NCBI RefSeq assembly: GCF_001654835.1
Contig: NZ_LXEP01000031.1
Coordinates: forward strand, 62,001-126,000
Source: Buttiauxella gaviniae ATCC 51604
GTDB lineage: Bacteria; Pseudomonadota; Gammaproteobacteria; Enterobacterales; Enterobacteriaceae
Length of the DNA: 64,000 nucleotides
Reading direction: 5' to 3'
Below are positions 23,141 to 39,080 of this stretch, in pieces. Each line of letters opens with the position of its first letter. Positions within the stretch are counted from its first letter, which is position 1. The notes beneath the pieces are model-generated. The model was not told the DNA's origin, made no database searches, and was given only the letters and a program-made list of their open reading frames with translations. The translations under genes and the position numbers were made by a program.

Positions 23141-23791
23141 ATGACAACTAACACTCTGCATTACATTTTCGACCCGCTGTGTGGCTGGTGCTACGGTGCA
23201 GCCCCGCTTGTCGACGCGGCTGGTGAAGTCCCTGGACTGTCGATTGCTCTGCATGGCGGCGGCATGATGGTTGGCAACCACCGTCGCACCATAGACGCGC
23301 AGTGGCGCGGGCATGTTATCGAACATGATGCGAGGATTGCCGCCATGACCGGGCAGCCGTTCGGTGAGGCATATATCAATGGCTTATTATTGGATACCAC
23401 GGCAGTGATGGACTCGGCCCCACCCACTTGCGCGATTCTTGCGGCGCAAAAGCTGGCCGGGCGCGGGCTGGAGATGCTGCATCTTATTCAGGTGGCGCAC
23501 TACCAGCATGGAAAGCGTGTGGCCGATTTTACCGTTGTTGAGGCGCTGGCCCAGGAACTTGGTTTACCCGTCCCGGCTTTTAGCGCTGAAATGCAGGCCA
23601 TCAACGGTGAAATCCTGAATCAGCATATTGCTGAAAGCCGTGCGCTACTGGCACAGCTTGGTGGACGTGGTTTCCCAACTTTTGCGCTTCGCAATAGCCT
23701 TGGGCAGTTACAGGTACTGGATGCCGGGCGCTACCTTGGTGATGTCCCTGCCTGGCAGGAGATGTTGCAGCGAAGCGTAGCTGGCGCTTAA
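23141..23791 (+). CDS. DsbA-family thioredoxin-fold protein
   Basis: A 216-residue cytoplasmic protein (no signal peptide) of the DsbA/FrnE-like group. The redox motif CGWC is at about residues 14-17 (FDPLCGWCYGAAPL), and the cis-Pro region is GGRGFPTFAL near residue 180. The central helical insertion matches the family. The ATG follows CCAGGAGGCGAA. It forms an operon with the exported MBL-fold gene, but the two act in different compartments. It is likely a protein disulfide isomerase-like or GST-kappa-like enzyme; the partner is unknown. Its stop overlaps the convergent yahB stop by four bases. Confidence 0.8.
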   Translation: MTTNTLHYIFDPLCGWCYGAAPLVDAAGEVPGLSIALHGGGMMVGNHRRTIDAQWRGHVIEHDARIAAMTGQPFGEAYINGLLLDTTAVMDSAPPTCAILAAQKLAGRGLEMLHLIQVAHYQHGKRVADFTVVEALAQELGLPVPAFSAEMQAINGEILNQHIAESRALLAQLGGRGFPTFALRNSLGQLQVLDAGRYLGDVPAWQEMLQRSVAGA

Positions 23792-24717
23792 TCCCGAACC
23801 AACAAGTCCCCATAAATCTCAGTCAACAACCCGCCCGGCGCAAACTGCTTTTTAATCCAGCGGGTTACCTGCCCGGTGGCGGCATGCTGGGTCGCCAGCA
23901 GCATGCGTGAATCCTGGCGCGGGTTGTTTATCTGGCGTGTCACCAGCAGGCCGCTATCCTGAGCCTCGCGCACCATATAGCTGGGTAAAAAACCAACGCC
24001 TTCTCCCAGAATCTGGCACTGGCACTTGGTGTTGAAGTCTGGCACCAGAATCGCTTCTTGCCCATGCAGCAGCCATCCCACCTTTTTATTCAGTGTTGAT
24101 GCGGTGTCTTCCACCATAATATTGGGGTACAGGCGCAGCTGGCTTTCAGAAATTGGCTCCGGCATAAATGCCAGCGGGTGGGTTGGAGCAATAGCAAACT
24201 GCCAGTGAATCGCGCCGATTTCCGTGTAATCAATCCCGCCACCGTCGAGCAATGTATCTGGCGCACCAATCGCAATATTTGCCTGGTTATTGATAATTGA
24301 GTCCCACACCCCGTTGTACACCTCTGTCGTGATAGTAATCAGGCAGGTAGGGAACTGCTTTTTCAGTATTTGCAGCAGTTTTGCTGTGTGGCGCGGGGTG
24401 TAAAGCAGTTGGTTGATACAGATGCGTACCTTCACCTCAATTCCTTGCGAGATGGTATCAACACCGCGTTTTATGGCGTGGAAATCGTTAAGTAGTTCGG
24501 TTGCTTTGCGATAGAAATAGAAGCCGGACTCGGTCAGTTCGATACTGCGGGTATTGCGCACAAACAGCACCACATCAAGGTAAGTCTCGATTCTTTTGAT
24601 GGTGTAGCTGACGGCAGAAGTGGTGATCCCCAGTTCGACCGCTGCCTTACTAAAACTTGAAAGGCGCGCCGTGGTGGTGAACGCCAGCAGGTTCTCTTCG
24701 GTAAAAATGGAATTCAT
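23788..24717 (-). CDS. yahB: LysR-family regulator YahB
   Basis: A 309-residue LysR protein close to E. coli YahB (310 residues): MNSIFTEENLLAFTTTARLSSFSKAAVELGITTSAVSYTIKRIE, KVRICINQLLYTPRHTAKLLQILKKQFPTC, EVYNGVWDSIINNQANIAIGAPDTLLDGGGIDYTEIG and DFNTKCQCQILGEGVGFLP. It is also related to AllS, the activator of allantoin catabolism, in the GVWDSI and DFNTK regions. It is divergent from yahD and the rest of the yah cluster and is the natural candidate for their regulator. GGGAG precedes the ATG. Confidence 0.9.
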   Translation of the reverse strand: MNSIFTEENLLAFTTTARLSSFSKAAVELGITTSAVSYTIKRIETYLDVVLFVRNTRSIELTESGFYFYRKATELLNDFHAIKRGVDTISQGIEVKVRICINQLLYTPRHTAKLLQILKKQFPTCLITITTEVYNGVWDSIINNQANIAIGAPDTLLDGGGIDYTEIGAIHWQFAIAPTHPLAFMPEPISESQLRLYPNIMVEDTASTLNKKVGWLLHGQEAILVPDFNTKCQCQILGEGVGFLPSYMVREAQDSGLLVTRQINNPRQDSRMLLATQHAATGQVTRWIKKQFAPGGLLTEIYGDLLVRD

Positions 24718-24765: not shown

Positions 24766-25111
24766 CAATCCTATTGTTGAATGTATTTGTATTCCTTATG
24801 ATCCGCGACTTTGCCTTGAACCATATTTAACACTGCCGTTACAAGTGATTTGAAGAGCATCACACTTCTTGAATCTCATTTCTCCCGCTATCTGCAAGGC
24901 CTGACGGCCTTCCTCATAGAGAGAGATAAAGAGCGGCGAAAGCTCTTCTATCATAGGTAAAAGATTGCTCTATCGCACATTTTGCTTACATTGTTGAATA
25001 CTATTCAACAATGCTGTCATTAACGATGAATGATTTTTAAACGGATGTTAAAGCGGTCATAGTGTTGCTATTCTCAATTCATCAGAAATAGCAAAGTATG
25101 GGAGTATGGAT

Positions 25112-25717
25112 ATGTCTCAGAAAGAACTTATTGCAGAATTTCTAAGTGCAGCAGAGCAGGGGCATCTGGAAAACCTAAAACAATGTCTCAGTGATGGTGT
25201 AGATATTAACGCTACTAATCGTCAAGGGCGTACCGCAATTACACTCGCCAGCCTCCACAAAAAATATGACTGTGTGGAATATTTAATTGCAGCTGGTGCC
25301 GATATCAATAAACAAGATCAAACCTGTTTTAACCCCTTCTTGTTGAGTTGTCTTAATAACGACCTGACATTATTACGCCTGTTATTACCAGCAAATCCCG
25401 ATCTGAATTGTTTATCCCGCTTTGGTGGCGTGGGCATTACCCCAGCCAGCGAAAAAGGACACGTTGAAATTGTCCGCGAATTAGTCACACGCACCGAAAT
25501 TAACGTTAACCACACTAATTTTGTTGGTTGGACGCCATTGCTTGAAGCTATCGTGCTCAATGATGGTGGGGCGAAACAGCAAGAGATCGTCAAACTACTG
25601 CTGGATCACGGTGCCAACCCGCACATGACCGATAAATATGGCAAATCCCCACTGTCTCTTGCGCGTGAAAAAGGCTATCACGAGATTGCCGAACTGCTGG
25701 TTAACTTTGGTGCCTGA
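25112..25717 (+). CDS. yahD: Ankyrin-repeat protein YahD
   Basis: A 201-residue protein made of ankyrin repeats: GHLENLKQCLSDGVDINATNRQGRTAITLASLHKKYDCVEYLIAAGADIN, a run of variants, then KLLLDHGANPHMTDKYGKSPLSLAREKGYHEIAELLVNFGA. There is no signal peptide. An ATG six bases upstream is too close to GGAG at 25101-25104; the ATG at 25112 has good spacing and gives exactly the E. coli YahD length. First gene of the yah cluster. Ankyrin repeats usually bind proteins; no partner is known. Confidence 0.9.
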   Translation: MSQKELIAEFLSAAEQGHLENLKQCLSDGVDINATNRQGRTAITLASLHKKYDCVEYLIAAGADINKQDQTCFNPFLLSCLNNDLTLLRLLLPANPDLNCLSRFGGVGITPASEKGHVEIVRELVTRTEINVNHTNFVGWTPLLEAIVLNDGGAKQQEIVKLLLDHGANPHMTDKYGKSPLSLAREKGYHEIAELLVNFGA

Positions 25718-25836
25718 TACACAGGAGATGCTCTATCGCCGGATATCTTCAGCGGCAGTGCCTTTTTGCACGAACGGCAGATAGCGCTTTTTTCGTCCCG
25801 GATTTATACGGTGATACAACAGGTTATGTTGAGCAG

Positions 25837-26655
25837 GTGTTTGACCGGGCGGTGAATATTCACCTCCCTGAAAGGCAACAGATCTTCACTTTGCTCAGTA
25901 CCGATTGTGATAACGCACCAAATAGCTGTCGTTTAGCAGTAGAGCATTGTCAGAACCACTTTAAGCCCGGTGAGCGGGTAATTTTTCACAGTAACTGCAT
26001 TGATATTGGCACAGATAAACGCATCGATTTCTCGCGCTGTACACGCTGGCAACCTGAAGCGCTTTTTCTAAGCCACACACGAATAAAACAGACCGATTGG
26101 CAACATCTTGCGCAAATGACACAGGCCAGTGTCATACAAAGTTCGTCACTATTTTATTTTCATGGCGATAATATTTTCTACCAGGAAATGAGCCGCCTGC
26201 TGCAATTACATCGAAAACAGCTTGTATCATCGCTAAATACAGGGAATTGCGCTGCGATTGAAAATGAAATAAGTGGATTACTGGGGTTAGGTATTGGGTT
26301 AACGCCATCTGGTGATGATTATCTGGCGGGTCTGAGTGCTGTTTTATTTATTACCGGACATCCTGCGCGGAAATACAGAGATATTTTTATTGTCGCACTG
26401 GAGAAAGAAAAACATAAAACCACGCAGCTAAGCGCTATTACGCTGCGTGAAGCTATTGACCAACGTTATCGTGAAACTATTTATGGTTTTATTTATCAGG
26501 TGGTCAATGGTGACTTGGAAAATATTCAGCAGTCTATTAACGAAATTAAAAAAATAGGGTCGAGTTCAGGATGCGACATGCTTTGCGGCATGGCGGATGC
26601 TTTCGCTTTGACCAAAATTAACGGAGGAAATTATGTCGACCAGGATTGTAATTAA
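25837..26655 (+). CDS. yahE: DUF2877 protein YahE (start uncertain)
   Basis: At least 272 residues. The DUF2877 signature GIGLTPSGDDYLAGLSAVL is clear at about residues 150-168. The start shown is a GTG, giving VFDRAVNIHLPERQQIFTLLS. The same frame continues open upstream for about 40 codons (for example DLYGDTTGYVEQ) with no ATG/GTG/TTG, and an ATG at 25728 in another frame runs 18 codons to a stop. The real N-terminus is therefore unresolved: either a shorter protein than E. coli YahE (287 residues), or a frameshift. Relatives (YlbF/AllH) belong to the oxamate carbamoyltransferase system. The stop overlaps yahF by 23 bases. Confidence 0.75.
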   Translation: MFDRAVNIHLPERQQIFTLLSTDCDNAPNSCRLAVEHCQNHFKPGERVIFHSNCIDIGTDKRIDFSRCTRWQPEALFLSHTRIKQTDWQHLAQMTQASVIQSSSLFYFHGDNIFYQEMSRLLQLHRKQLVSSLNTGNCAAIENEISGLLGLGIGLTPSGDDYLAGLSAVLFITGHPARKYRDIFIVALEKEKHKTTQLSAITLREAIDQRYRETIYGFIYQVVNGDLENIQQSINEIKKIGSSSGCDMLCGMADAFALTKINGGNYVDQDCN

Positions 26656-28183
26656 AAAGAATACCTATTTTGATTCTGTCTCACTGATGTCCATTTCAAC
26701 CAAAGCCAACCAGCTTGACGGTGTGGAACAGGCGTTTGTCGCGATGGCGACCGAGATGAACAAAGGGGTTTTAAAGAACCTCGGTCTGTTAAACGACGAG
26801 CTGGAACAGGCCAAAAATGGCGACCTGATGATTGTCATCAAAGGAGCGAGCGATGCGGCAAATGAAGCCACGCTTGAAGCCATTGAAGGGCTCTTCACCC
26901 GCAAAGACAGCGGCAATTCACGCCACGAAGCGCGTTACGCCACACTTGCCAGCGCACATCACAATATCCCGGAAACTAACCTCGCGGTGATTTCGGTCAA
27001 CGGCGCGTTTGCTGCCCGTGAAGCACGTCAGGCGCTGGAAAACGACCTCAACGTGATGCTCTTTTCCGACAACGTTTCCCTTGAAGACGAACTGGCACTC
27101 AAGCAGCTCGCACACAGCAAAGGGTTGCTGATGATGGGGCCGGACTGCGGTACTGCGATTATCAACGGTGCAGCGTTGTGCTTTGGTAACGCGGTACGCC
27201 GTGGCTCAATTGGCATTGTTGGCGCGTCCGGCACTGGTAGCCAGGAATTGAGCGTGCGTATCCATGAATTTGGCGGTGGAATTTCACAACTCATTGGCAC
27301 TGGTGGGCGTGATTTAAGCGAGAAAATCGGCGGCATCATGATGCTCGACGCCATCAAAATGTTGGAAGATGACGCGCAAACTGAAGTGATTGTGCTGGTT
27401 TCCAAACCACCTGCTGAAGCGGTAGCCCGTAAAGTGCTGGAGAGGGCCAAAGCTTGCCGCAAACCGGTGGTGGTTTGTTTCCTCGGTACTAAAGAAGCAC
27501 GTGAGGATGAAGCAGGTTTGCAGTTTGCTCGTGCCACGAAAGAGGCTGCGCTGAAAGCCGTTCTGCTTACTGGAATCAAAAAAGAGTCACTGGACTTACA
27601 CCCGCTTAACTGGCCGCTGATTGAAGAAGTCCGTGCGCGCATGAAACCTGAGCAAAAGTACATTCGTGCACTGTTCTGCGGCGGCACGCTGTGTGACGAA
27701 GCGATGTTTGCAGCATTGGAAAAGTACCCGGACGTCTACAGCAATATCCAGCCGAACCCTGAATACCGCCTCAAAGATGTGAATGTCAGTATCGCCCACA
27801 CCTTCCTCGATTTTGGCGATGACGATTTCACCAACGGCAAACCACACCCGATGATTGACCCAACCAACCGTATTAGCCGCCTGTTGCAGGAAGCGCGTGA
27901 CCCGGAAGTGGGCGTGATCGTAATGGACTTCGTCTTGGGCTTTGGCTCCCATGAAGATCCGGTTGGTGTGATGCTTGATGCCATCAAAGAAGCGAAAGCC
28001 ATTGCTACCCGCGAAGAGCGTAACCTGGAAATCCTGGGCTATGTGTTGGGCACCGATTTGGACACGCCATCGCTTGAAAAGCAGTGCCAGATGCTGACGG
28101 ATGCGGGCGTTATCTGGGCTAGTAGCAGCACCAACACCGGTTTGCTTGCGCGTGAGTTTGTTTGCAAGGAGAAAGCACAATGA
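26633..28183 (+). CDS. yahF: FdrA-family acyl-CoA-synthetase-like protein YahF
   Basis: A 516-residue member of the FdrA family, with a succinyl-CoA-ligase-like fold. The CoA/nucleotide-binding core is GIVGASGTGSQELSVRIHEFGGGISQLIGTGGRDLSEKIGG (about residues 194-234). A ligase-like C-terminal half follows (ALFCGGTLCDEAMF, GVIVMDFVLGFGSHEDPVGVML). It matches E. coli YahF (515 residues). FdrA/AllF with YlbE/AllG has been linked to oxamate carbamoyltransferase activity in E. coli, so a carbamoyl-transfer role is plausible here. GGAGG precedes the ATG inside yahE; the stop overlaps yahG (ATGA). Confidence 0.88.
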   Translation: MSTRIVIKKNTYFDSVSLMSISTKANQLDGVEQAFVAMATEMNKGVLKNLGLLNDELEQAKNGDLMIVIKGASDAANEATLEAIEGLFTRKDSGNSRHEARYATLASAHHNIPETNLAVISVNGAFAAREARQALENDLNVMLFSDNVSLEDELALKQLAHSKGLLMMGPDCGTAIINGAALCFGNAVRRGSIGIVGASGTGSQELSVRIHEFGGGISQLIGTGGRDLSEKIGGIMMLDAIKMLEDDAQTEVIVLVSKPPAEAVARKVLERAKACRKPVVVCFLGTKEAREDEAGLQFARATKEAALKAVLLTGIKKESLDLHPLNWPLIEEVRARMKPEQKYIRALFCGGTLCDEAMFAALEKYPDVYSNIQPNPEYRLKDVNVSIAHTFLDFGDDDFTNGKPHPMIDPTNRISRLLQEARDPEVGVIVMDFVLGFGSHEDPVGVMLDAIKEAKAIATREERNLEILGYVLGTDLDTPSLEKQCQMLTDAGVIWASSSTNTGLLAREFVCKEKAQ

Positions 28184-29592
28184 GTTTATTCAACCAACCG
28201 CTAAATGTGATTAACGTCGGCATTGCAATGTTCAGCGACGATTTGAAAAAGCAGAGCGTTCCCGTGACGCAACTGTACTGGACGCCACCCGGGCAGGGTA
28301 ATTTAGCTGTCGTTAACGCGCTCGATTCCATTGCCGCTCCGGCACTTGCCGAAAAAGTAGCAGCGGCTAACAAACTGGCCGTTGAGCGCATCATCCAGTC
28401 ACAGCCGGTTTTAGTCGGCTATGACCAGGCGATTAACGTGGTACCGGGCATGACGCGCAACACCATTCTGCACGCCGGGCCGCCTATCGCCTGGGAAAAT
28501 ATGTGCGGCGCGATGAAAGGTGCCGTCACCGGGGCGCTGGTGTTTGAAGGGCTGGCGGCGAATATTGATGAGGCCGCACAACTGGCGGCGTCTGGCGAAA
28601 TCATCTTCTCGCCATGCCATGAACACGACTGCGTAGGGTCTATGGCGGGTGTGACGTCTGCCTCAATGTTTATGCATATCGTCGAGAACAAAACCTACGG
28701 CAACCGCGCATATACAAACCTCAGCGAGCAGATGGCGAAGATCTTGCGCATGGGCGCTAACGACCAGAGCGTTATCGACCGTCTTTTCTGGATGCGTGAT
28801 GTGCTCGGCCCAATGCTGCGTGATGCGATGAAACTGGCGGGTGAAATCGACCTGCGTTTGATGCTGGCGCAAGCACTGCATATGGGCGACGAGTGCCACA
28901 ACCGCAACAACGCGGGCACCACGTTGCTGATTCAGGCGCTCACGCCGTGGATTATTCAGACTAATTTCACCGTCGCGCAGCAGAAAGAAGTGTTCGATTT
29001 TGTCGCCAGCAGCGACTATTTCTCCGGCCCAACGTGGATGGCGATGTGCAAAGCGGCAATGGACGCAGCGCACGGTATCGAATACAGCACCGTGGTGACC
29101 ACCATGGCGCGTAACGGCGTGGAGTTTGGCTTGCGCGTTAGCGGCTTGCCGGGACACTGGTTCACCGGCCCGGCGCAGCAAGTGATCGGCCCGATGTTTG
29201 CGGGTTACAAACCTGCAGATTCTGGGCTGGATATTGGCGACAGCGCGATTACCGAAACCTACGGCATCGGCGGTTTTGCTATGGCAACGGCTCCGGCGAT
29301 TGTGGCGCTGGTGGGGGGCACCGTGGATGAAGCTATCGACTTCTCGCGCCAGATGCGTGAGATAACGCTGGGCGAAAACCCGAATGTCACCATTCCATTG
29401 CTGTCGTTTATGGGCATTCCAACCGCCATTGATATTACGCGTGTGGGCAACAGCGGCATTTTGCCGGTGATCAACACCGCCATTGCCCACAAAGATGCGG
29501 GCATCGGCATGATTGGCGCCGGGATTGTCCATCCGCCGTTTGAATGTTTTGAGAAGGCTCTGCTCGCCTTTGGTGAGCGTTACTCTTTCTGA
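28180..29592 (+). CDS. yahG: DUF1116 protein YahG (YlbE/AllG-like)
   Basis: A 470-residue DUF1116 protein, similar in size to E. coli YahG (472). Typical stretches are GMTRNTILHAGPPIAWENMCGAMKGAVTGALVFEG, FSPCHEHDCVGSMAGVTSASMFMHIVENK, AQALHMGDECHNRNNAGTTLLIQALTPWI, PGHWFTGPAQQVIGPMF and the C-terminal GAGIVHPPFECFEKAL. Conserved His, Cys and Glu residues (CHEHDCVG, MGDECHNRN) suggest a catalytic site. It is a likely partner of YahF in a carbamoyltransferase. The ATG overlaps the yahF stop. Confidence 0.88.
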   Translation: MSLFNQPLNVINVGIAMFSDDLKKQSVPVTQLYWTPPGQGNLAVVNALDSIAAPALAEKVAAANKLAVERIIQSQPVLVGYDQAINVVPGMTRNTILHAGPPIAWENMCGAMKGAVTGALVFEGLAANIDEAAQLAASGEIIFSPCHEHDCVGSMAGVTSASMFMHIVENKTYGNRAYTNLSEQMAKILRMGANDQSVIDRLFWMRDVLGPMLRDAMKLAGEIDLRLMLAQALHMGDECHNRNNAGTTLLIQALTPWIIQTNFTVAQQKEVFDFVASSDYFSGPTWMAMCKAAMDAAHGIEYSTVVTTMARNGVEFGLRVSGLPGHWFTGPAQQVIGPMFAGYKPADSGLDIGDSAITETYGIGGFAMATAPAIVALVGGTVDEAIDFSRQMREITLGENPNVTIPLLSFMGIPTAIDITRVGNSGILPVINTAIAHKDAGIGMIGAGIVHPPFECFEKALLAFGERYSF

Positions 29593-29603
29593 GGGATACC
29601 CCG

Positions 29604-31142
29604 ATGACAAACGTTAAGCTTGAGTGGAAACGCGGTGACTGGGCGGCATATTTCGGGTTGATGACCAACAACCTGACCAACTTGCTGACCATGATGGGGT
29701 TACTCATTTTTGTGGTGGGTATACCAACGGAAATTGTTTACGGGCGCATTGCGCCAGCCTTCGGGCTGGCGGTGCTGGTAGCGAGCATTTGCTACGCCTG
29801 GTTTGGCCTGCAACTGGCAAAAGAGACAGGGCGCAAAGATGTGACCGCACTGCCTTCCGGGCCAAGTGCGCCGTCCATCTTTACCGTGACGTTTTTGGTA
29901 TTGATGCCGGTCTACCAGCAAACCGGCGACGCTGAGTTTGCGATTCAGATTGGCCTGGTGTGGTGTTTTGTTGAAGCGATGATTCTGGTGGGCGGTTCGT
30001 TCCTTGGCGAAACCATCCGCAAGATGATCCCGCGTACCGTTCTGCTTTCGTGTTTGTCGGGCTTAGGTTTATTGCTGCTGGCGATGAACCCGATGCTTCA
30101 GGCATTTGAAGCGCCGACTGTTTCCTTCATCGTGCTGCTGCTTATCTTCATCAACTGGTTTGGCAAAAAGCCGATTTTTGCCCGTATTCCTACAGGCTTA
30201 TTACTGCTGGTTGCCGGTACTGCGCTGGCGTGGGTTTCCGGCCTGCAAAGCCCGGAAGCGATCAAAGCCTCGATGTCCTCATTCGGCTTTAACCCACCAT
30301 CGATTCATGTTGATAGCTTCCTGCAAGGCTTGCCGCACGCGCTGCCATACCTGGCATCGGCAGTTCCGTTGGGGCTGGCGAACTACATTTTTGACCTGGA
30401 AAACATTGAGAGTGCCCACGCAGCGGGTGATGAGTACAACACCCGTAAAGTGATGCTCACCAACGGCCTTGCCTCCACGCTCGGCTGCCTGATGGGGAAC
30501 CCGTTCCCGGTCACGGTGTACGTTGGACACGCGGGCTGGAAAGCGATGGGTGCGAGTATCGGCTACACGCTGGCATCGGGTGTGACGATGTTTATCGTGC
30601 CGCTGTTTGGCCTCGGTGCATTCATGCTCGCCATTATTCCGATGACTGCCATTGTGCCAATTCTGGTGTTTATCGGCGTGGTGACGGCAAACCAGGTGGT
30701 GCGCGAAACGCCGAAGATAGAGGTGCCGGTTATTTTCATCTGCTTGTTCCCGTGGATAGCCAACTGGGCGCTGACCATGGTGAATAGCGTGATGGCAGCG
30801 GCCGGGACGTCGGCTGCAAAAATCGGCCCTGAAGCGCTGGCGCATAAAGGGGTGTTTTACCAGGGACTGGTGCATTTGGGCAACGGTGCACCGCTCGCCA
30901 GCATGTTGTGGGGTTGCGTGGCAATCTTCGCGATTATCAACAAGCCGTTACGTGGTGCAGTGGCCGCCGCAGTTGGTGCGTTGCTGGCACTGTTTGGCGT
31001 GATTCATGCGCCGATGGTCGGCTTTGCGCAGGGCAGTTCGCTGATGTTTGTCACCGCGTATTTGATGATGGGCGCGATGTTTGTGGTGAAGCATGTGCTT
31101 GACCGTCGTGAAGCGGCTTCTGAGGTTGTGACTTCCGTTTAA
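29604..31142 (+). CDS. NCS2-type purine/pyrimidine-like permease
   Basis: A 512-residue membrane protein with about 12-14 helices, related to the xanthine/uracil (NCS2/AzgA-like) permeases. Recognisable parts are LTNLLTMMGLLIFVVGIPTEIVYGRIAPAFGLAVLV, DVTALPSGPSAPSIFTV, YIFDLENIESAHAAGDEYNTRKVMLTNGLASTLGCLMGNPFPVTVYVGHAGWKAMGA and VVTANQVVRETPKIEVPVIFICLFPWIANW. The gene is inserted between yahG and yahI, which are not separated by such a gene in the E. coli order I recall. It would import the ring compound, or its opened product, used by the cluster. The ligand cannot be read from the sequence. Confidence 0.82.
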   Translation: MTNVKLEWKRGDWAAYFGLMTNNLTNLLTMMGLLIFVVGIPTEIVYGRIAPAFGLAVLVASICYAWFGLQLAKETGRKDVTALPSGPSAPSIFTVTFLVLMPVYQQTGDAEFAIQIGLVWCFVEAMILVGGSFLGETIRKMIPRTVLLSCLSGLGLLLLAMNPMLQAFEAPTVSFIVLLLIFINWFGKKPIFARIPTGLLLLVAGTALAWVSGLQSPEAIKASMSSFGFNPPSIHVDSFLQGLPHALPYLASAVPLGLANYIFDLENIESAHAAGDEYNTRKVMLTNGLASTLGCLMGNPFPVTVYVGHAGWKAMGASIGYTLASGVTMFIVPLFGLGAFMLAIIPMTAIVPILVFIGVVTANQVVRETPKIEVPVIFICLFPWIANWALTMVNSVMAAAGTSAAKIGPEALAHKGVFYQGLVHLGNGAPLASMLWGCVAIFAIINKPLRGAVAAAVGALLALFGVIHAPMVGFAQGSSLMFVTAYLMMGAMFVVKHVLDRREAASEVVTSV

Positions 31143-31147
31143 TACTT

Positions 31148-31192
31148 CCCCTCACCCTAACCCTTTCCCCAGGGAGAGGGCCGGGGTGAGGG
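31148..31192. repeat. Intergenic palindromic repeat
   Basis: CCCCTCACCCTAACCCTTTC and its reverse image GGGAGAGGGCCGGGGTGAGG form a strong GC-rich hairpin between the permease gene and yahI. This sequence type is a common short intergenic repeat in gamma-proteobacteria and could lower read-through into yahI. Confidence 0.7.
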
Positions 31193-31217
31193 CGTCCGTA
31201 CCCTAAGGATAAAAATA

Positions 31218-32168
31218 ATGAAACAACTTGTGGTCGTGGCAATTGGCGGCAACAGCATCATCAAAGACAACGCCAGCCAGTCGGTTGAACATCAGCAAGT
31301 CGCGGTTAAAGAAGTGGCCCAGACGGTGCTGGAAATGCTCTCGTCGGATTACGACATCGTGCTGACGCACGGCAACGGCCCACAGGTGGGGCTGGACCTG
31401 CGTCGTGCGGAAATCGCCCATGAGAAAGAGGGATTGCCGCTCACACCGCTGGCTAACTGTGTGGCAGATACCCAGGGCGGCATCGGCTATCTGATTCAGC
31501 AGGCGCTGAATAACCAGTTGGGGAAACACGGAGACAAAAAAGCGGTCACCGTGATAACTCAAGTGGAAGTGGACAAAAACGACCCGAATTTCGCGCATCC
31601 AACCAAGCCGATTGGCGCGTTCTTTAGCGAACAACAGTGCGAGGCGCTAAAAGTGGCGCATCCGGACTGGCAGTTTGTGGAAGATTCCGGGCGTGGTTAC
31701 CGTCGGGTTGTGGCGTCTCCAGAGCCAAAACGCATTGTTGAAGCTGATGCCATCAGCGCGCTTATCAAACAAGGCTTTGTGGTGATTGGTGCAGGAGGTG
31801 GCGGTATTCCGGTGATTCGCAGCGAAGAGGGCGATTATCAGAGCGTGGATGCGGTTATCGATAAAGACCTGTCTACCGCGCTGCTGGCTCGCGAAGTGAA
31901 CGCTGACATTCTGGTGATCACCACTGGCGTGGAGAAAGTATGTATTCACTTTGGCAAACCAGAACAACGAGCGCTCGATGAAGTCACGGTTGAACAGATG
32001 GCGCATTTCAGCGAAGAAGGTCATTTCCCTCCGGGCAGCATGCTGCCAAAAATCACTGCCAGCCTCGCGTTCCTGCGCAATGGCGGCAAACGCGTGATTA
32101 TCACCACCCCTGAAAAATTACCTGCGGCCCTACGTGGCGAGACGGGCACTCATATTGTTAATGCTTAA
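31218..32168 (+). CDS. yahI: Carbamate kinase-like protein YahI
   Basis: A 316-residue carbamate kinase of the amino-acid kinase fold, the length of E. coli YahI. It would convert carbamoyl phosphate and ADP to carbamate and ATP. Motifs are VAIGGNSIIKD at the start, LTHGNGPQVG, DTQGGIGYLIQQAL, IGAGGGGIPVI, DAVIDKDLSTALLAREVNADILVITTGVEKV and FPPGSMLPKITA. In the cluster it would harvest ATP from carbamoyl phosphate made by a YahF/YahG transferase. AAGGATAAAAATA precedes the ATG. Confidence 0.92.
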   Translation: MKQLVVVAIGGNSIIKDNASQSVEHQQVAVKEVAQTVLEMLSSDYDIVLTHGNGPQVGLDLRRAEIAHEKEGLPLTPLANCVADTQGGIGYLIQQALNNQLGKHGDKKAVTVITQVEVDKNDPNFAHPTKPIGAFFSEQQCEALKVAHPDWQFVEDSGRGYRRVVASPEPKRIVEADAISALIKQGFVVIGAGGGGIPVIRSEEGDYQSVDAVIDKDLSTALLAREVNADILVITTGVEKVCIHFGKPEQRALDEVTVEQMAHFSEEGHFPPGSMLPKITASLAFLRNGGKRVIITTPEKLPAALRGETGTHIVNA

Positions 32169-32183
32169 GAGTGGGAGAACTCA

Positions 32184-33572
32184 ATGAATAATGCAGAAAA
32201 AAGCCGCCGTGAATTTTTAAGCGGTGGCGGTAAAGTGGCTGCTGCCTGCGCACTCTTTGGCGCGACTGGCTCAATGGCGTATGCTGCGAAACCAGCCTCC
32301 CTTGCCTGTGAGACGGACAATCGCATGAGCGCCATTAAAGAATCGCATTACTACCTCGACAACGTACTGCTTGAGGCGGGTTTTAGCCGCGACGGGCAGA
32401 CTATTGTTGGCACGCAAACCGAACTGAAAACGCTGGAAATTAAAGACGGCAAAATTGCGGCACTGCTCGCAAATAAACAGCATCCCGATGCCACCCTTGC
32501 CCATTACGATGCGTCAGGGAAACTGCTGCTGCCAGCGATGCGCGATATGCACATCCATCTTGATAAAACCTTCTACGGCGGCCCGTGGCGTGTGCATAAC
32601 CGCCCGGCGGGAACCACCATTCTGGACATGATTGCCCTTGAGCAAAAATTGCTGCCGGAATTGCAACCGGTCACTCAGGAGCGTGCGGAAAAACTGATTG
32701 ATTTGATACAGTCGAAAGGCTCGACCATCGCCCGAAGCCATTGCAACGTTGAGCCCGTTTCCGGGCTGAAAAACCTCGAAAATCTGCAAGCGGTTCTGGA
32801 ACGCCGTAAGTCTGGTTTTAGCTGTGAAATTGTCGCGTTTCCTCAGCATGGTTTGCTGCACTCTAACTCCGTTGCGTTGATGCGCGATGCAATGCAAGCG
32901 GGCGCTCACTATGTGGGTGGGCTTGACCCGACTAACGTCGACGGGGCGATGGAAAAATCCTTAGATGCCATGTTCCAGATAGCCATCGACTACAAAAAAG
33001 GTGTCGATATCCACCTGCATGAAACCAGCCCAGCCGGGATCGCCGCGGTGAATTACATGGTTGAAACGGTGGAGAAAACCCCTGAGCTGAAAGGCAAATT
33101 GACCATCAGCCACGGTTTTGCACTGGCGATGATGAACGAACAAGAAGTTGATGCGATTGCTACGCGTATGGCGGCGCAGCAAATTACTATCGCGTCAACG
33201 GTACCGATTGGCACCATGCATATGCCACTCAAGCAGTTGCAAGAGAAGGGGGTGTTTGTGATGACGGGCACCGACAGCGTTATCGACCACTGGTCGCCGT
33301 ATGGCCTGGGCGACATGCTGGAGAAAGCCAACCTTTATGCGCAGCTCTATATGCGTGTCAGTGAATTGAATCTTTCACGATCCCTTGCGATTGCCACCGG
33401 CAACGTGCTGCCGCTTAATGACAAAGGCGAGCGTGTGTGGCCAAAAGCACAGGATGAAGCAAGCTTTGTGCTGGTGGATGCCTCATGTTCTGCCGAAGCA
33501 GTGGCACGTATCTCTCCACGAACCGCGACCTTCCATAAAGGGAATCTGGTTTGGGGTGAACTTAGCGTGTAG
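32184..33572 (+). CDS. yahJ: Amidohydrolase-superfamily deaminase YahJ with Tat signal
   Basis: A 462-residue amidohydrolase similar to E. coli YahJ (460 residues) and related to cytosine deaminase. The metal ligands are all present: HxH in RDMHIHLDK, His in VDIHLHETSPAG, His in LTISHGFALA and Asp in FVMTGTDSVIDHWSP. The N-terminus has a twin-arginine motif SRREFLSGG followed by a hydrophobic stretch AAACALFGATGSMAYA, so the enzyme should be exported folded to the periplasm. That would place the first hydrolytic step outside the cytoplasm and the carbamoyl steps inside, with the permease between. Substrate unknown. Last gene of the cluster. Confidence 0.88.
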   Translation: MNNAEKSRREFLSGGGKVAAACALFGATGSMAYAAKPASLACETDNRMSAIKESHYYLDNVLLEAGFSRDGQTIVGTQTELKTLEIKDGKIAALLANKQHPDATLAHYDASGKLLLPAMRDMHIHLDKTFYGGPWRVHNRPAGTTILDMIALEQKLLPELQPVTQERAEKLIDLIQSKGSTIARSHCNVEPVSGLKNLENLQAVLERRKSGFSCEIVAFPQHGLLHSNSVALMRDAMQAGAHYVGGLDPTNVDGAMEKSLDAMFQIAIDYKKGVDIHLHETSPAGIAAVNYMVETVEKTPELKGKLTISHGFALAMMNEQEVDAIATRMAAQQITIASTVPIGTMHMPLKQLQEKGVFVMTGTDSVIDHWSPYGLGDMLEKANLYAQLYMRVSELNLSRSLAIATGNVLPLNDKGERVWPKAQDEASFVLVDASCSAEAVARISPRTATFHKGNLVWGELSV

Positions 33573-33849: not shown

Positions 33850-35160
33850 ATGTCTATAGAACTCGAAACACGGGTGCTGCGAAAAATAACGCTTCGCATC
33901 ATTCCCTTTATTATGCTGCTCTATTTTATTGCTTTTCTGGATAGGGTGAATATTGGTTTCGCGGCATTAACAATGAACCAGGAGTTAGGTTTTTCTCCCA
34001 CTGTTTTTGGTATCGGCGCGGGAATATTTTTCCTCGGTTATTTTTTATTTGAAGTTCCGTCTAACCTTATCTTGAATAAAGTTGGGGCGAGGATTTGGAT
34101 TGCCCGAGTCATGATTACCTGGGGACTGGTTTCAGGGGCAATGGCTTTTGTTCAGGGCACGACCAGTTTCTATATTTTACGTTTCTTACTTGGTGTGGCT
34201 GAAGCCGGATTTTTCCCTGGTATAATTCTGTACTTAAGCTTTTGGTTCCCCATGAAACGACGTGCTCAAGTAACGGCTATTTTCATGGCTGCAGCACCTT
34301 TATCGACTGCACTAGGTTCACCCATTTCCGGGGCATTGCTGGAATTACACGGTTTCCTTGGTTGGTCTGGCTGGAAATGGATGTTTGTACTTGAGGCGAT
34401 CCCCGCAGTGATTTTAGGTTGCGTGGTGTTGTTCTGGCTTACCGATCGCCCTGCTAAAGCAAAATGGTTAACTGATGAAGAGCGCAACTGGCTTATGCAG
34501 ACTCTTGCTGCTGAACAAAGTACTAAAGCGGGTTCCGCTCATGTGAGTGTCTGGAAAGGTCTGGCAGATAAACGCGTTATTGCCTTGTCGTTGGTCTATT
34601 TCGGGACTTCTGCCGGGCTCTATACCCTGGGGATCTGGTCACCGCAGATAATCAAAGCATTTGGCATGAGTTCCTTGCAAGTCGGGCTATTAAACGCCAT
34701 TCCTGCCATTATTGCGGTGGTCGCGATGGTGCTTTGGGCGCGGCATTCGGATAAAAAAGTGGAACGTACCTGGCATATTATCGGTGCTTGTATGCTGGCG
34801 GCAGTAGGGTTGATTTATGCTGGTATGGTTACCACTGTGGTGACAGCAATTATCGCCTTAACTTTGGTTAATGTCGGTATCAGTGCCTCCAAGCCGCCAT
34901 TGTGGAGTATGCCAACGATGTTTTTGTCAGGCTCTGCAGCAGCGGCAGGGATCGCCACGATAAACTCGATTGGTAATCTGGGCGGGTTCGTCGGACCCGT
35001 GATGATTGGGGTGATTAAAGAACACACGGGGAGTTTCACTGGCGGGCTGTTGTTTGTTGCCGCGTTACTGTGTTTGTCATCGATTCTGGTTTGGTTACTG
35101 TCAAAGAGTGCCGAGCGGCAGAATAGTGCTTATCAAGCCCCACATTCTAAATCATCGTGA
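33850..35160 (+). CDS. MFS anion:cation symporter (ACS family), copy 1
   Basis: A 436-residue major facilitator with 12 predicted helices. The ACS-family opening is LRIIPFIMLLYFIAFLDRVNIGFAALTMNQELGFSPTVFGIGAGIFFLGYFLFEVPSNLIL, and ILRFLLGVAEAGFFPGIILYLSFWFP is also typical. Family members carry carboxylates such as tartrate, phthalate or glucarate. It is clearly a paralogue of the carrier at 35508, with long shared stretches. The nearby tartrate dehydrogenase suggests a tartrate-type substrate. A hairpin terminator follows, so the two carriers are probably separate transcripts. Confidence 0.85.
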   Translation: MSIELETRVLRKITLRIIPFIMLLYFIAFLDRVNIGFAALTMNQELGFSPTVFGIGAGIFFLGYFLFEVPSNLILNKVGARIWIARVMITWGLVSGAMAFVQGTTSFYILRFLLGVAEAGFFPGIILYLSFWFPMKRRAQVTAIFMAAAPLSTALGSPISGALLELHGFLGWSGWKWMFVLEAIPAVILGCVVLFWLTDRPAKAKWLTDEERNWLMQTLAAEQSTKAGSAHVSVWKGLADKRVIALSLVYFGTSAGLYTLGIWSPQIIKAFGMSSLQVGLLNAIPAIIAVVAMVLWARHSDKKVERTWHIIGACMLAAVGLIYAGMVTTVVTAIIALTLVNVGISASKPPLWSMPTMFLSGSAAAAGIATINSIGNLGGFVGPVMIGVIKEHTGSFTGGLLFVAALLCLSSILVWLLSKSAERQNSAYQAPHSKSS

Positions 35161-35166
35161 ATGCGA

Positions 35167-35192
35167 AACGGCTACCGACTGAGGTAGCCGTT
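35167..35192 (+). terminator. Stem-loop terminator after the first MFS gene
   Basis: AACGGCTAC (35167-35175) pairs with GTAGCCGTT (35184-35192), followed by CTCATTAATC. The stem is strong and the T run weak. The rest of the 347-base gap to 35508 is AT-rich and shows no gene. Confidence 0.6.
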
Positions 35193-35507
35193 CTCATTAA
35201 TCGATTAAATCTCTGATGTTTGAAGCCTATCACAAATACAAACTTTAGCGTCCAGGCTAACTCTCCATATATAAACAGGTATTTTATCTGGATTTCTTCT
35301 TAGCTTAAGTGTTAATTACTCTAGCTATATGATCTATCATGCTTTTTTAGAGGCGACTCATATCTGTTAGCATTATTTCATTTTTTTATATAATCACGAC
35401 TGGATGATTCATCTCGATCGGCAGCGCATATTTCAATGACTGGCCTGTGCTATTTAGACTTATAACAACAGGTGTCCGATTATTTATTAAAATAATGGAA
35501 ATATGCT

Positions 35508-36803
35508 ATGACTCATTCATTAGAACATCTTACCCTCAAAAAAATAACCTGGCGCATAGTCCCTTTTGTTATGTTTGCCTATTTCATAGCCTTCTTTGAC
35601 CGAATAAATATTGGTTTTGCAGCATTAACCATGAATCAGGATTTAGGTTTTTCTTCAACTGTATTTGGTGTTGGTGCAGGCATGTTTTTTATTGGTTATT
35701 TTCTGACTGATATTCCTTCTAATATAATATTGCAAAAAGTGGGGCCACGGATTTGGCTGGCTCGAATTATGGTGAGTTGGGGAGCGATTGCTGTCTGTAT
35801 GATGTTTGTCGAGACTGCGACCGGGTTCTATATTTTGCGTTTTCTGTTGGGCGTTGCAGAGGCGGGTTTTTTCTCAGGAATTATTCTCTATTTAAGTACC
35901 TGGTTTCCTGTTAAGCGTCGTGCCCAAGTTATCGCATTTTTCATGGCGGCAGCGCCCATATCGGCAATGTTGGGTTCGCCTCTGGCTGGCACTATTTTGA
36001 GTTTACATGGCGCGTTAGGTTTGAAAGGTTGGCAACTCATGTTCTTAATTGATGCTGTTGCCGCCATTTTATTGGGTATTTTCACGCTGTTTTATTTGAA
36101 CGACAGGCCTGAAAAGAATCGTTGGTTAAATCAGAAAGAGACCGATTGGTTGATCACCACCCTGGCCCAGGAACGTAACGCGCAGGGCAGTCAGGCAAAA
36201 ACCAGCATCTGGAAAGGGTTGACCGATATTCGCGTGTTAACGTTGGCTGTGGTCTATTTTGGGACTTCAGCGGGGTTGTATTCACTTAACATATGGTCGC
36301 CGCAGTTTATTAAATCGTTTGGTTTAAGCACGTTTCAAATTGGTTTTGTGAATGCGATTCCGGCAGCGCTTTCAGTGGTTGCGATGATCCTGTGGGCGAA
36401 GCATTCTGATAAGACCAAAGAAAGAACCTGGCATGTCGTGAGTGCCTGTTTACTGGCGTGCGTCGGGTTTATTCTTGCCGGTTCGCTTCATTCCTTGCCG
36501 CTGGCTATATTTGCCCTGATTTTGGCAAACATTGGTATCTCTTCTTGCAAGCCACCGCTGTGGAGCATTCCGTCGCTATTCCTCAATGGACCTGCTGCTG
36601 CTGCTGGACTTGCAGCAATAAATTCTATCGGCAACTTAGGTGGTTTTGCAGGGCCTGCGGTGATTGGCTGGTTGAAAGAGACCACGGGTGACTTTTCACT
36701 GGCGCTCTATTGTGTAGCGGGCATGCTGGTGATTTCGGCGTTGCTTACGCTATCTATTGAGATTAACCGCAAACGCAGGGAGTTGAAAAACTCACTGGCT
36801 TAA
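35508..36803 (+). CDS. MFS anion:cation symporter (ACS family), copy 2
   Basis: A 431-residue paralogue of the preceding carrier, sharing FAYFIAFFDRINIGFAALTMNQDLGFSSTVFGVGAGMFFIGYF, ILRFLLGVAEAGFFSGIILYL and the C-terminal NIGISSCKPPLWSIPSLFLNGPAAAAGLAAINSIGNLGGFAGP. Twelve helices are predicted. It lies on the far side of the LysR gene from tartrate dehydrogenase. It probably imports tartrate or a related dicarboxylate (TtuB-like); which of the two copies serves which substrate is unknown. A bidirectional terminator follows. Confidence 0.85.
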   Translation: MTHSLEHLTLKKITWRIVPFVMFAYFIAFFDRINIGFAALTMNQDLGFSSTVFGVGAGMFFIGYFLTDIPSNIILQKVGPRIWLARIMVSWGAIAVCMMFVETATGFYILRFLLGVAEAGFFSGIILYLSTWFPVKRRAQVIAFFMAAAPISAMLGSPLAGTILSLHGALGLKGWQLMFLIDAVAAILLGIFTLFYLNDRPEKNRWLNQKETDWLITTLAQERNAQGSQAKTSIWKGLTDIRVLTLAVVYFGTSAGLYSLNIWSPQFIKSFGLSTFQIGFVNAIPAALSVVAMILWAKHSDKTKERTWHVVSACLLACVGFILAGSLHSLPLAIFALILANIGISSCKPPLWSIPSLFLNGPAAAAGLAAINSIGNLGGFAGPAVIGWLKETTGDFSLALYCVAGMLVISALLTLSIEINRKRRELKNSLA

Positions 36804-36811
36804 ATGTGGGT

Positions 36812-36841
36812 AAAACAGCGCCTGTATATTGGCGCTGTTTT
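36812..36841. terminator. Bidirectional terminator between MFS copy 2 and the LysR gene
   Basis: A perfect stem AAAACAGCGCC/GGCGCTGTTTT with an 8-base loop. A T run follows on the plus strand (TTTTAATATTTTTG), and the A run on the other side gives T's on the minus strand. Confidence 0.8.
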
Positions 36842-37754
36842 AATATTTTTGAGAAATAATCGCTAATTCTTGCATGACCACTTTCATCATATTATCGCGA
36901 GTTTCATCGCGTGAATCTTTTACCCATACCGCAGATAATGCTAGTTTATGCCTGACATTAATATATTCGTTAGCTAGAGGAATAAATTTTACATTTAATG
37001 CAGACATTCTGGACACCCATTTCGGCATAATCGCTGCACCTAATTCAGCAGCCACCATATTAATAATAGTTTGTTTTTCGTCGGCAATTTGCACCAGTTG
37101 TGGTTTAAAGCTGGCGTTATCAAATAAATCTAATGTCAAATCATAGCTATGAGGCCGAACACGCCTTTCGGGAACAATCATTGGCACATTAATCAGATCG
37201 TTGACATGTATTTCACTGCATTGCGCCAGGCGATGTTTTTCAGAAATTGCCAGCACTACATCTTCATAAAAAAGAAATTGGCTTTCCAGCGCTTCATCCT
37301 TTTGCTCGGTAGGGCGAATAAAGATTAAATCCAAGCGGCCAGATTTTAACTTTGGCAGCAGCTTTGATGACTTATCTTCCACAATTTGGATGTCAACTTC
37401 AGGCCAATTATCACGGAAAATATGCAGCACATGCGGGACCAGGTTGATGGTGGCGCTGTCGATTGCGCCGATACGCAAACGTCCTGCATTTTGCCGCGCC
37501 AGCTTCTTAAAACGTTGCTGGAGTTGATCGGCCATAGAGACAATTTCTTTTGCATCATCAAGGAACAATGCGCCATGCGGCGTTAAAGAAACATTGCGAG
37601 TGGAACGTGATAACAGCCGTGTACCGAGATCTTCTTCCAGCAGTTTTATGTATCGGCCTAATGCTGAGGGGAGCATATCCAGCTTTTGCGCCGCATGCCC
37701 AAAATGCAGTTCTTCGGCCACGGCAATGAAACATCTCAGCTGATTGAGCTCCAC
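36840..37754 (-). CDS. LysR-family regulator of the tartrate-type cluster
   Basis: A 304-residue LysR regulator that starts with GTG (AGAGG five bases upstream). The DNA-binding part is residues 1-60 (MELNQLRCFIAVAEELHFGHAAQKLDMLPSALGRYIKLLEEDLG). The effector domain resembles the BenM/CatM-like group (RIGAIDSATINLVPHVLHIFRDNWPEVDIQIVEDKSSKLLPKL). It is divergent from tartrate dehydrogenase, with an inverted-repeat LysR box between them, in the position of TtuA of known tartrate loci. Tartrate as co-inducer is inferred. Confidence 0.83.
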   Translation of the reverse strand: MELNQLRCFIAVAEELHFGHAAQKLDMLPSALGRYIKLLEEDLGTRLLSRSTRNVSLTPHGALFLDDAKEIVSMADQLQQRFKKLARQNAGRLRIGAIDSATINLVPHVLHIFRDNWPEVDIQIVEDKSSKLLPKLKSGRLDLIFIRPTEQKDEALESQFLFYEDVVLAISEKHRLAQCSEIHVNDLINVPMIVPERRVRPHSYDLTLDLFDNASFKPQLVQIADEKQTIINMVAAELGAAIMPKWVSRMSALNVKFIPLANEYINVRHKLALSAVWVKDSRDETRDNMMKVVMQELAIISQKY

Positions 37755-37933
37755 ATTTTCCTCTCAGAATTATATCAATTTTTTGCATAAACAGATGCGA
37801 GTGATACTAATGGCTTTCTGTGCATAATGATAGTTGTCAGGCGTTAATAATTAATGGGAATCCATCAGATTGTGACGCACATAAAATAATTAAAATATTA
37901 ACCTGCAAGTTTAATTTTTTTAAATAAAGGCAT

Positions 37934-37949
37934 CATTAGAAAACTAATG
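37934..37949. promoter_or_regulatory. LysR-type operator upstream of tartrate dehydrogenase
   Basis: CATTAGAAAACTAATG is a perfect inverted repeat in the T-N11-A pattern recognised by LysR proteins. A TATAAT hexamer lies downstream at 37972-37977 and AAGGAG precedes the ATG, so the box overlaps the expected -35 region. Confidence 0.6.
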
Positions 37950-37997
37950 GTGCACCTGAATTGACCTAAAATATAATCATTGTAAGGAGTCTTACCT

Positions 37998-39065
37998 ATG
38001 CGTAACTACAAAATTGCTGCAATTCCCGCTGATGGTATTGGTACTGAAGTTATTTCTGCTGGCGTTAGTGTTCTTGAATGTCTACAAAAGAAAGTAGGCG
38101 ATGTGAGTTTCCAAATTGAACATTTTGACTGGGGTTCTGATTATTACAAAAAGAATGGCGTGATGATGCCAGAAAATGGTTTGGAAAAACTGAAAGCATT
38201 TGATGCTATTTATTTTGGTGCGGTTGGTGCTCCAGATGTTCCTGACCATATTACCCTTTGGGGGCTTCGTTTACCTATTTGTCAGGGATTTGATCAATAT
38301 GCCAATGTGCGTCCAACTAAAATTATGTCGGGTATTCAGTCGCCGCTGCGCAATGCTGGGCCTGGCGATCTGGATTGGGTTATTGTTCGCGAGAACTCTG
38401 AAGGCGAATATTCAGGTCATGGCGGCCGTGCGCACCGTGGCTTACCGGAAGAAGTGGGTACTGAAGTCGCTATTTTCACCCGTGCAGGTGTCACGCGCAT
38501 TATGCGTTATGCTTTCAAACTCGCACAATCTCGCCCGCGTAAGCTACTGACTGTAGTAACAAAATCCAATGCTCAACGCCACGGTATGGTGATGTGGGAT
38601 GAAATTGCTGCGGAAGTGGCAACAGAGTTCCCGGATGTGAGTTGGGATAAAATGCTGGTAGATGCCATGACTGTGCGTATGACGCTGCATCCAAAATCAC
38701 TGGATACCATTGTGGCAACCAACCTCCATGCTGACATTCTCTCTGACCTTGCAGGTGCGCTGGCCGGGAGTCTGGGTGTTGCGCCTACGGCAAATATCGA
38801 CCCGGAGCGCCGTTTCCCTTCAATGTTTGAACCTATTCATGGTTCTGCATTTGATATCACCGGCAAAGGCATCGCCAACCCAGTGGCAAGTTTCTGGACA
38901 GCGGCACAAATGTTGGACCATCTCGGTGAGCATGATGCATCAGCTTTGTTGATGTCTGCGGTAGAAGAAGTGTGCGCAGCAGGTATTAAAACACCAGATG
39001 TCGGCGGTAAAGCAACGACTCGTGAAGTCACCGAGGCGGTTATTGCCGCCATCATGAAGCGCTAA
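37998..39065 (+). CDS. ttuC: Tartrate dehydrogenase / D-malate-type decarboxylating dehydrogenase
   Basis: A 355-residue NAD- and metal-dependent beta-decarboxylating dehydrogenase of the isocitrate/isopropylmalate family. The tartrate dehydrogenase pattern is strong: AAIPADGIGTEVISAGVSVL, FGAVGAPDVPDHITLWGLRLPICQGFDQYANVRP, VRENSEGEYSGHGGR, KSNAQRHGMVMWDEI and ATNLHADILSDLAGALAGSLG. Members convert tartrate isomers and D-malate; the meso-tartrate reaction gives D-glycerate. The next gene encodes a glycerate kinase, which fits that route. The E. coli relative is DmlA (YeaU). AAGGAG precedes the ATG. Confidence 0.9.
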   Translation: MRNYKIAAIPADGIGTEVISAGVSVLECLQKKVGDVSFQIEHFDWGSDYYKKNGVMMPENGLEKLKAFDAIYFGAVGAPDVPDHITLWGLRLPICQGFDQYANVRPTKIMSGIQSPLRNAGPGDLDWVIVRENSEGEYSGHGGRAHRGLPEEVGTEVAIFTRAGVTRIMRYAFKLAQSRPRKLLTVVTKSNAQRHGMVMWDEIAAEVATEFPDVSWDKMLVDAMTVRMTLHPKSLDTIVATNLHADILSDLAGALAGSLGVAPTANIDPERRFPSMFEPIHGSAFDITGKGIANPVASFWTAAQMLDHLGEHDASALLMSAVEEVCAAGIKTPDVGGKATTREVTEAVIAAIMKR

Positions 39066-39080
39066 ATATCAGGGGGAAGA

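Follow-up and report, generated by a model that had tools for sequence, protein, structure and literature searches.

What is the yah gene cluster for? Seven Escherichia coli genes (yahB, yahD to yahG, yahI and yahJ) bear only putative or domain-based names in the K-12 record, and a version of the cluster lies in a 64,000-nucleotide stretch of Buttiauxella gaviniae ATCC 51604 (NZ_LXEP01000031.1, positions 62,001 to 126,000), the whole of which is called the window here. The interval 25112-33572 holds seven open frames, all on the plus strand, in the order yahD, yahE, yahF, yahG, a permease gene, yahI and yahJ; yahB lies upstream and is divergent from this unit. The cluster may encode a pathway for the scavenging and fermentation of a nitrogen heterocycle, a tentative reading that is plausible but falls short of probable. 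A preliminary description of the locus had placed here an amidohydrolase, a permease, an FdrA-like protein and a carbamate kinase; Pfam and NCBIfam searches confirm these except for the permease, which matches no family, and the ankyrin-repeat gene yahD belongs to the unit as well. It had also called the substrate undescribed, in agreement with the literature among the matches listed.

The spacing and shared direction of yahD to yahJ are operon-like. The yahD/yahE gap is 17 nucleotides (nt), given an ATC start for yahE (see below), and those of yahG/permease, permease/yahI and yahI/yahJ are 11, 75 and 15 nt, respectively. The yahE and yahF genes overlap by 23 nt and yahF and yahG by 4 nt.

Three of the proteins encoded in this one operon are homologues of AllF, AllG and AllH, which were co-purified in 2024 as the oxamic transcarbamylase (OXTCase) of E. 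coli (PMC11326118, excerpt). YahE (25735..26655, plus strand) is the AllH-type subunit, with the conserved domain PF11392. YahF (26633..28183, plus strand) is the AllF/FdrA-type subunit, with CoA_binding and Ligase_CoA domains and a score of 494 bits against the NCBIfam FdrA model (cut-off 433). YahG (28180..29592, plus strand) is the AllG-type subunit (PF06545, 300 bits); its ATG overlaps the yahF stop, and a TTG at 28162 is also open. The preliminary description had the families of YahE and YahG right under outdated names, as DUF2877 and DUF1116 are now AllH and AllG. YahI (31218..32168, plus strand) is a carbamate kinase that scores 595 bits against the subfamily model PRK12352 (cut-off 266); its score against the arcC equivalog model (355.9 bits) is slightly below the cut-off of 358.25. 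The AllFGH-AllK system of E. coli likewise groups the genes of the three homologous subunits with that of a carbamate kinase in a single operon (PMC11326118, excerpt), and the chemistry from carbamoyl phosphate to ATP is presumed to be common to the two systems. The yah cluster differs in having no AllC, AllD or AllE alongside and in its additional ankyrin protein, permease and deaminase. Because AllFGH activity is proven in E. coli and a carbamate kinase gene adjoins, the formation of carbamoyl phosphate and ATP from a ureide by YahEFG and YahI, as the preliminary description had envisaged, is a well-grounded prediction by homology.

The only solved YahG relative found is PDB 3clq (71% identity), which we take to be an Enterococcus faecalis protein. 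The structure model of YahE has a predicted local distance difference test (pLDDT) score of 92.7 and no confident PDB match (best Foldseek E-value: 0.25, best VIA Z: 4.3), a result that speaks neither for nor against a new fold. The NCBIfam name "acyl-CoA synthetase FdrA", together with the CoA-ligase domains, would make YahF an acyl-CoA synthetase and the cluster a system for activating an acid with CoA. This is hardly credible. The succinyl-CoA ligase phosphohistidine lies in the GHAGAI motif of SucD, and the corresponding position is His in none of 69 aligned AllF/YahF proteins, YahF included, so the label is misleading; as FdrA is also part of a proven transcarbamylase, we reject this function.

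A profile from an AllG alignment led by 3clq was searched against genome contigs, and the best 80 of 572 loci were kept as a sample rather than a census. A quick tree was computed for 112 AllG-type proteins, with support from the SH-like approximate likelihood ratio test (SH-aLRT) only and one very long branch (L072; L and G numbers are our locus and genome labels). In it the window YahG, 3clq and 82 others form one fully supported group. The canonical AllG group (four rows) and a nine-member group with most of the TrtA-linked proteins lie outside it. By this tree YahEFG is a separate, widespread paralogous lineage, and it recurs in Bacillota, Actinomycetota and Pseudomonadota. Four distant AllG loci (L072-L075) were mapped but left out of interpretation, as was L080, whose match is weak and bears stops.

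Is YahEFG then a second OXTCase? It might act on oxalurate derived from parabanate or oxidised purines, through YahJ or water, instead of from allantoin. The closest characterised relatives of YahEFG are AllFGH, the YahG lineage includes 3clq, and by their titles a 1965 paper reports a Streptococcus OXTCase induced by parabanic acid and a 1986 study concerns the oxalurate pathway of Streptococcus faecalis. The host genome contains a single AllG and a single AllH gene, both in the window, and no AllD at an E-value of 1e-80; the adjacent open reading frames (ORFs) scanned with Pfam and NCBIfam give no match to AllC, AllD or AllE. AllD produces oxalurate. Among 198 sampled genomes of the host's family, AllD is found at the same threshold in 11, and in just three of the 20 with a YahG-type gene (assigned from match data, these 20 scoring lowest, <310 bits, and other AllG >316 bits), so oxalurate from allantoin is not the usual feed. 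Two observations speak against a second OXTCase. The yahEFG genes of E. coli K-12 fail to replace allF, allG and allH, single deletions of which interrupt oxamate formation (PMC11326118, excerpt). In addition, 13 of 13 genomes with a YahG-type gene, among 22 from the genus of L127 (Enterococcus crotali), hold a second paralogue with 44-46% identity, which suggests different jobs; none of these 22 genomes has a match of ~100% identity to 3clq. A second OXTCase is, on balance, unlikely.

The first half of the proposed pathway centres on YahJ (32184..33572, plus strand), a cytosine-deaminase-like amidohydrolase that scores 673 bits against PRK06846 (cut-off 447). YahJ residues H123, H125, H277, H310, D364, E280, Q221 and W370 correspond to CodA H61, H63, H214, H246, D313, E217, Q156 and W319; the sole mismatch among nine positions compared is CodA D314, which is Ser in YahJ. 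The HxH, H and D that we take to be the CodA metal ligands are all kept, as the preliminary description had stated, and so are the catalytic E and H. Solved structures found for relatives of YahJ belong to AtzC-type enzymes and cytosine deaminases. The metal ligands, the Trp and the substrate Gln are conserved between CodA, AtzC and YahJ, and so is the catalytic Glu, except that AtzC has Asp in its place. Enzymes of the cytosine deaminase/AtzC group remove an exocyclic amine. Unlike CodA, YahJ of enterics has a twin-arginine translocation (Tat) signal, and the Tat export proposed earlier is consistent with the motif SRREFL in the window protein. A twin-arginine pattern is present in 53 of 70 YahJ-type proteins, and the 17 misses include L054 (over-long called start), L095 (enteric variant ARRKFL), CodA-like rows and relatives from Bacillota and Actinomycetota. 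E. coli YahJ appears among predicted Tat substrates with no assigned function, and the competitive index of a yahJ deletion in a pathogenic strain was 0.70 when measured in an infection assay (PMC7549933, excerpt).

From its active site, YahJ is more likely to be a periplasmic deaminase than a ring-opening enzyme. The preliminary description had YahJ act as a periplasmic ring-opener of a cyclic ureide or amide, with YahEFG processing the product. Such an activity would fill the missing ring-opening step, and ring-openers do exist among amidohydrolases; the NCBIfam models for dihydropyrimidinase, dihydroorotase and allantoinase also match YahJ weakly, but these matches span just ~50-60 residues around the HxH motif. 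Ring opening is disfavoured because the active site matches the cytosine deaminase/AtzC group, and it is further weakened because an unrelated deaminase takes the place of YahJ in some related operons (13 of the best 80 loci). Those kindred operons that do encode a ring-opener have a separate enzyme for it, a cyanuric acid hydrolase. On balance, we regard YahJ as quite improbable in that role.

Counting genes within 9 kb of allG, the 80 loci contain AllF-type (76), carbamate kinase (63), AllH-type (55), ankyrin (49), permease (31) and YahJ-type (26) genes, together with regulator family F6 (23; PucR by Pfam in the one member run), allantoin-permease-like NCS1 (17), guanine-deaminase-like (13) and other NCS1 genes (10). 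None of eight marker classes is found in 14 loci. The YahJ class accepts matches with as little as 28% identity; when whole loci are considered, such a gene is present in 28 of 80, and in 20 of these its identity is at least 50%. YahJ-type and guanine-deaminase-like genes occur together in 0/80 loci within 9 kb and in 1/80 over the whole fetched loci (L104), a near-exclusive pattern that would be expected if both enzymes supply a deaminated ring. The guanine-deaminase-like enzyme, queried from L058, is closest to guanine deaminase and unrelated to YahJ. In L058 (variant C) its gene occupies the yahJ slot, and YahG of this locus falls inside the enteric YahJ-bearing tree group. L057 has a guanine-deaminase-like gene (36%) ~7-8 kb from the operon, which is not counted as an operon member.

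In Clostridium ultunense and Tissierella pigra (L168 and L177), AllH, AllF, AllG and kinase genes follow a gene of a ring-opening family and one for a CodA-like deaminase. The L168 ring-opener is a cyanuric acid hydrolase (563 bits, cut-off 360; the nearest solved chains are likewise cyanuric acid hydrolases), and the deaminase falls between cytosine deaminase and AtzC. There, ring opening falls to an enzyme other than the deaminase. This anaerobe operon looks like one for s-triazine fermentation with ATP gain. L168 (451-12182) and L177 also hold an F6-family regulator, an unknown 417-aa protein and a YbbY-like permease. No cyanuric-acid-hydrolase family gene is found in the host genome by a search that, among nine genomes, does recover it in the four whose loci showed one.

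A further arrangement (variant B) combines AllFGH with a TrtA-like hydrolase (L059-L062, L067, L068, L070, L071 and L078). The L061 protein matches PDB 6xix (E-value: 4e-87), the triuret hydrolase TrtA (PMC7948467); the TrtA-like protein scores 275 bits, below the NCBIfam biuret-hydrolase cut-off of 370. An allophanate-hydrolase C-terminal domain is encoded in L059-L063, L070 and L068, where it forms a fusion with the TrtA-like domain, and a permease ~40% identical to that of the window in L059-L063 and L068. Linkage of allFGHK with triuret and biuret hydrolase genes, as in variant B, is already published for nitrifiers (PMC12625717, excerpt). Variant B differs from yah in that its AllG sits in a different tree group from YahG and no YahJ or YahD is found in its loci. 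In the sister lineages, then, AllFGH adjoin a TrtA relative, a cyanuric acid hydrolase or AllCDE, all of them ureide-making hydrolases. AllF/AllG/AllH-type complexes could be general acylurea or ureide phosphorylases that stand behind varied hydrolases (for allantoin, triuret, cyanurate or a deaminated heterocycle), with yah adding an ankyrin scaffold, its own permease family and a periplasmic deaminase, and with YahE made sparingly from an AUC codon. This generalisation is attractive but, taken as a whole, somewhat unlikely.

How would the product of YahJ enter the cell? The permease (29604..31142, plus strand) was described earlier as NCS2-type, which holds for the predicted fold and not for the sequence family. 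Its AlphaFold2 model (pLDDT 82.8) matches the UraA/UapA/SLC26 type, with Z 29.3 and a root-mean-square deviation (rmsd) of 4.6 over 398 aligned residues for UapA, and Z 27.4 and rmsd 3.4 over 365 for UraA. Pfam at an E-value of 10 gives no match for three of four permeases, including the window protein, and one irrelevant match for the fourth; when its profile is compared by hhalign with UraA, DauA and YbbY, the matches are insignificant. The permease thus resembles UraA/UapA (NCS2, SLC23) and SLC26 proteins in predicted fold but not in sequence family, and from the model it is taken as a new sequence family inside this fold.

The cluster as such is not new, as E. coli K-12 has an identical gene order minus the permease; the earlier observation that the permease lies outside the E. 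coli order is correct. The K-12 order is yahB, yahC, yahD to yahG, "yahH", yahI and yahJ. A tblastn search for yahC of K-12 finds no counterpart in the window, and tandem repeats annotated as yahH fill the permease slot of K-12. The E. coli yahH (L002:10770-11090) spans these repeats, which we take to be of the repetitive extragenic palindromic (REP) type, and is probably not a real gene. A permease remnant in the E. coli yahG-yahI gap was ruled out, the matches being words of 7-11 bases only. The yahD-yahE junction is present in 5017 of 5426 complete E. coli genomes.

Among the 198 family genomes, the permease occurs in 21 and allG in 49, and in all 21 the permease gene, or part of it, lies within 4 kb of allG (Fisher p = 3.5e-15, uncorrected for kinship); in G109 the gene is split across two contigs and its 5' part adjoins allG. 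The permease is present in 17 of the 20 genomes with YahG-type AllG and lacking in three, so within this sample the permease-bearing form is the common one, and that of E. coli is exceptional. Fifteen family genomes combine the permease with AllG and a close YahJ; gene order is constant in the 13 that were mapped (the window and 12 loci; L048 is without YahE), and coordinates are consistent in G165 and G168, the remaining two. The ORF caller skipped yahD in L048 and L058, where tblastn recovered it. The closest named relative in the sample is Buttiauxella sp. A111 (L120), with 94-98% identity for the yah proteins (74% for YahE) and the same upstream genes.

The remaining proteins are a putative regulator and a putative scaffold. 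YahB (23788..24717, minus strand) is a LysR-type regulator whose best models are AllS (253 bits, cut-off 372) and PunR (228 bits, cut-off 345). By these profile scores YahB is related to both and is neither; the AllS relationship given in the preliminary description survives, an AllS identity does not, and PunR is close too. YahD (25106..25717, plus strand; start possibly 25112, as in the E. coli annotation) has the conserved ankyrin domain PF12796. Ankyrin YahD is found with both YahEFG and YahJ across phyla (window 25106-25717; L104:11312-12547; L110:12824-14329), and in all three Bacillota members run through Pfam the ankyrin protein is fused to tetratricopeptide repeats.

The proposed model for the yah pathway is as follows. 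Tat-exported YahJ would deaminate a cyclic amidine or guanidine in the periplasm, candidates being cytosine-, ammelide-, creatinine- or iminohydantoin-like compounds. The permease would import the resulting cyclic or opened ureide, and the ring would be converted, perhaps spontaneously, to an acylurea or ureido acid. If YahE, YahF and YahG act like their AllFGH paralogues, they would use phosphate to release an amide or amine and carbamoyl phosphate, from which YahI, judged by homology, would make ATP. YahB is likely to be the inducer-sensing regulator, and YahD is a probable protein-protein scaffold for the pathway.

Several observations weigh against this model. The yah operon encodes no ring-opening enzyme, and L104 carries both deaminase types within 10 kb (its YahJ relative being 38% identical). 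YahJ relatives of Bacillota and Actinomycetota are without the Tat motif. SLC26 and SVCT proteins score nearly as well as nucleobase transporters against the permease model, so that structure does not separate nucleobase from anion (SLC26) transport, and E. coli-type clusters do without the permease. Full OXTCase activity in E. coli requires AllH (PMC11326118, excerpt), and yet Enterobacter-type yah clusters persist without it: a whole-genome search finds AllH in 0 of 4 such genomes (G144, G486, L122 [G581] and L126 [G582]), all of which retain yahF, yahG, permease, yahI and yahJ. As K-12 keeps yahEFG and deletions of allF, allG or allH nevertheless matter, yahEFG is no stand-in under those conditions. 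The reported residual oxamate of 7% and 16% on complementation with allFG and allGH, respectively, may or may not reflect help from YahE or YahF.

The link between the YahJ half and the YahEFG half of the pathway is one that we infer. The cluster could instead be two modules under one promoter with no shared pathway, YahB-YahD-YahJ scavenging ammonia and YahEFG-permease-YahI producing carbamoyl phosphate. Close YahJ (at least 55% identity) occurs in 40 of the 198 genomes, not counting a stop-bearing 64-residue fragment in G143, and 15 of these 40 have no AllG match. Four loci (L081, L082, L084 and L099) hold yahB, yahD and yahJ together with no yahEFG, permease or kinase in the stretch, L085 shows yahD-yahJ, and other YahJ genes adjoin different LysR regulators or stand apart. 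Conversely, L058 and many of the best 80 loci have a YahEFG module without YahJ. Against such independence stand the fixed order in the 13 mapped genomes, with agreeing coordinates in G165 and G168, the company that YahD keeps with both modules, and the fact that some relatives swap YahJ for another deaminase rather than simply losing it. Two unconnected modules are an unlikely arrangement, and the single pathway is preferred as the working model.

The yah cluster is thus a good but unproven lead on E. coli genes of unassigned function. Its contexts (triuret, cyanurate, guanine-like deaminase and CodA-like deaminase) yield a short, directly testable list of substrates. Naming the substrate would assign the cluster and place an unclassified transporter family, and could reveal another activity in a family of transcarbamylases for which genes have been known only since 2024.

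The start of yahE is unusual. Between the upstream stop and a GTG at 25837, which lies inside the conserved part of the protein, there is no in-frame ATG, GTG or TTG, and an ATC (25735-25737) is found 7 nt after AGGAG. The aligned start codon in 27 distinct loci is ATC in 19, GTG in four and ATG in one, with three unscored; the 19 comprise 17 scored by script, L079 by inspection and L052 (ATT by script, aligned codon ATC). In 16 aligned loci, related rather than independent cases, the ATC and the Shine-Dalgarno GGA are invariant and most of the spacer is variable. E. coli K-12 (ATC at L002:6902-6904) and five more E. coli strains also have ATC upstream of the annotated start, the annotated GTG being eight codons downstream of it. 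From this conservation, yahE probably starts at a non-canonical ATC, in E. coli as well. The start codon of allH is ATG. The OXTCase authors estimate one minority component (x > y), printed as AllG and apparently meaning AllH (PMC11326118, excerpt); a weak yahE start codon would suit a minority AllH-type component.

Several features were noted in passing. The permease-yahI spacer (31143..31217) contains a GC-rich palindrome, spotted by eye in the printed sequence. Genes 3' of yahJ (33850-40352) include two major facilitator superfamily transporters, a LysR regulator and presumably TtuC- and TtuD-like genes; the same transporters and regulator also follow in G019 (L079). This region is likely to be a separate unit, since Buttiauxella L120 has other genes at that position. 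Elsewhere, AllG domains occur in frames of 1007-1028 residues (G591:C1:201956, G593:C20:81983, G598, G601, G611, G614 and G617), which are possibly AllF fusions. Halanaerobiales AllFG operons (L173, L179 and L180) adjoin two families, a xanthine-dehydrogenase-type molybdoprotein (L173) and a putative cyclase (L172).

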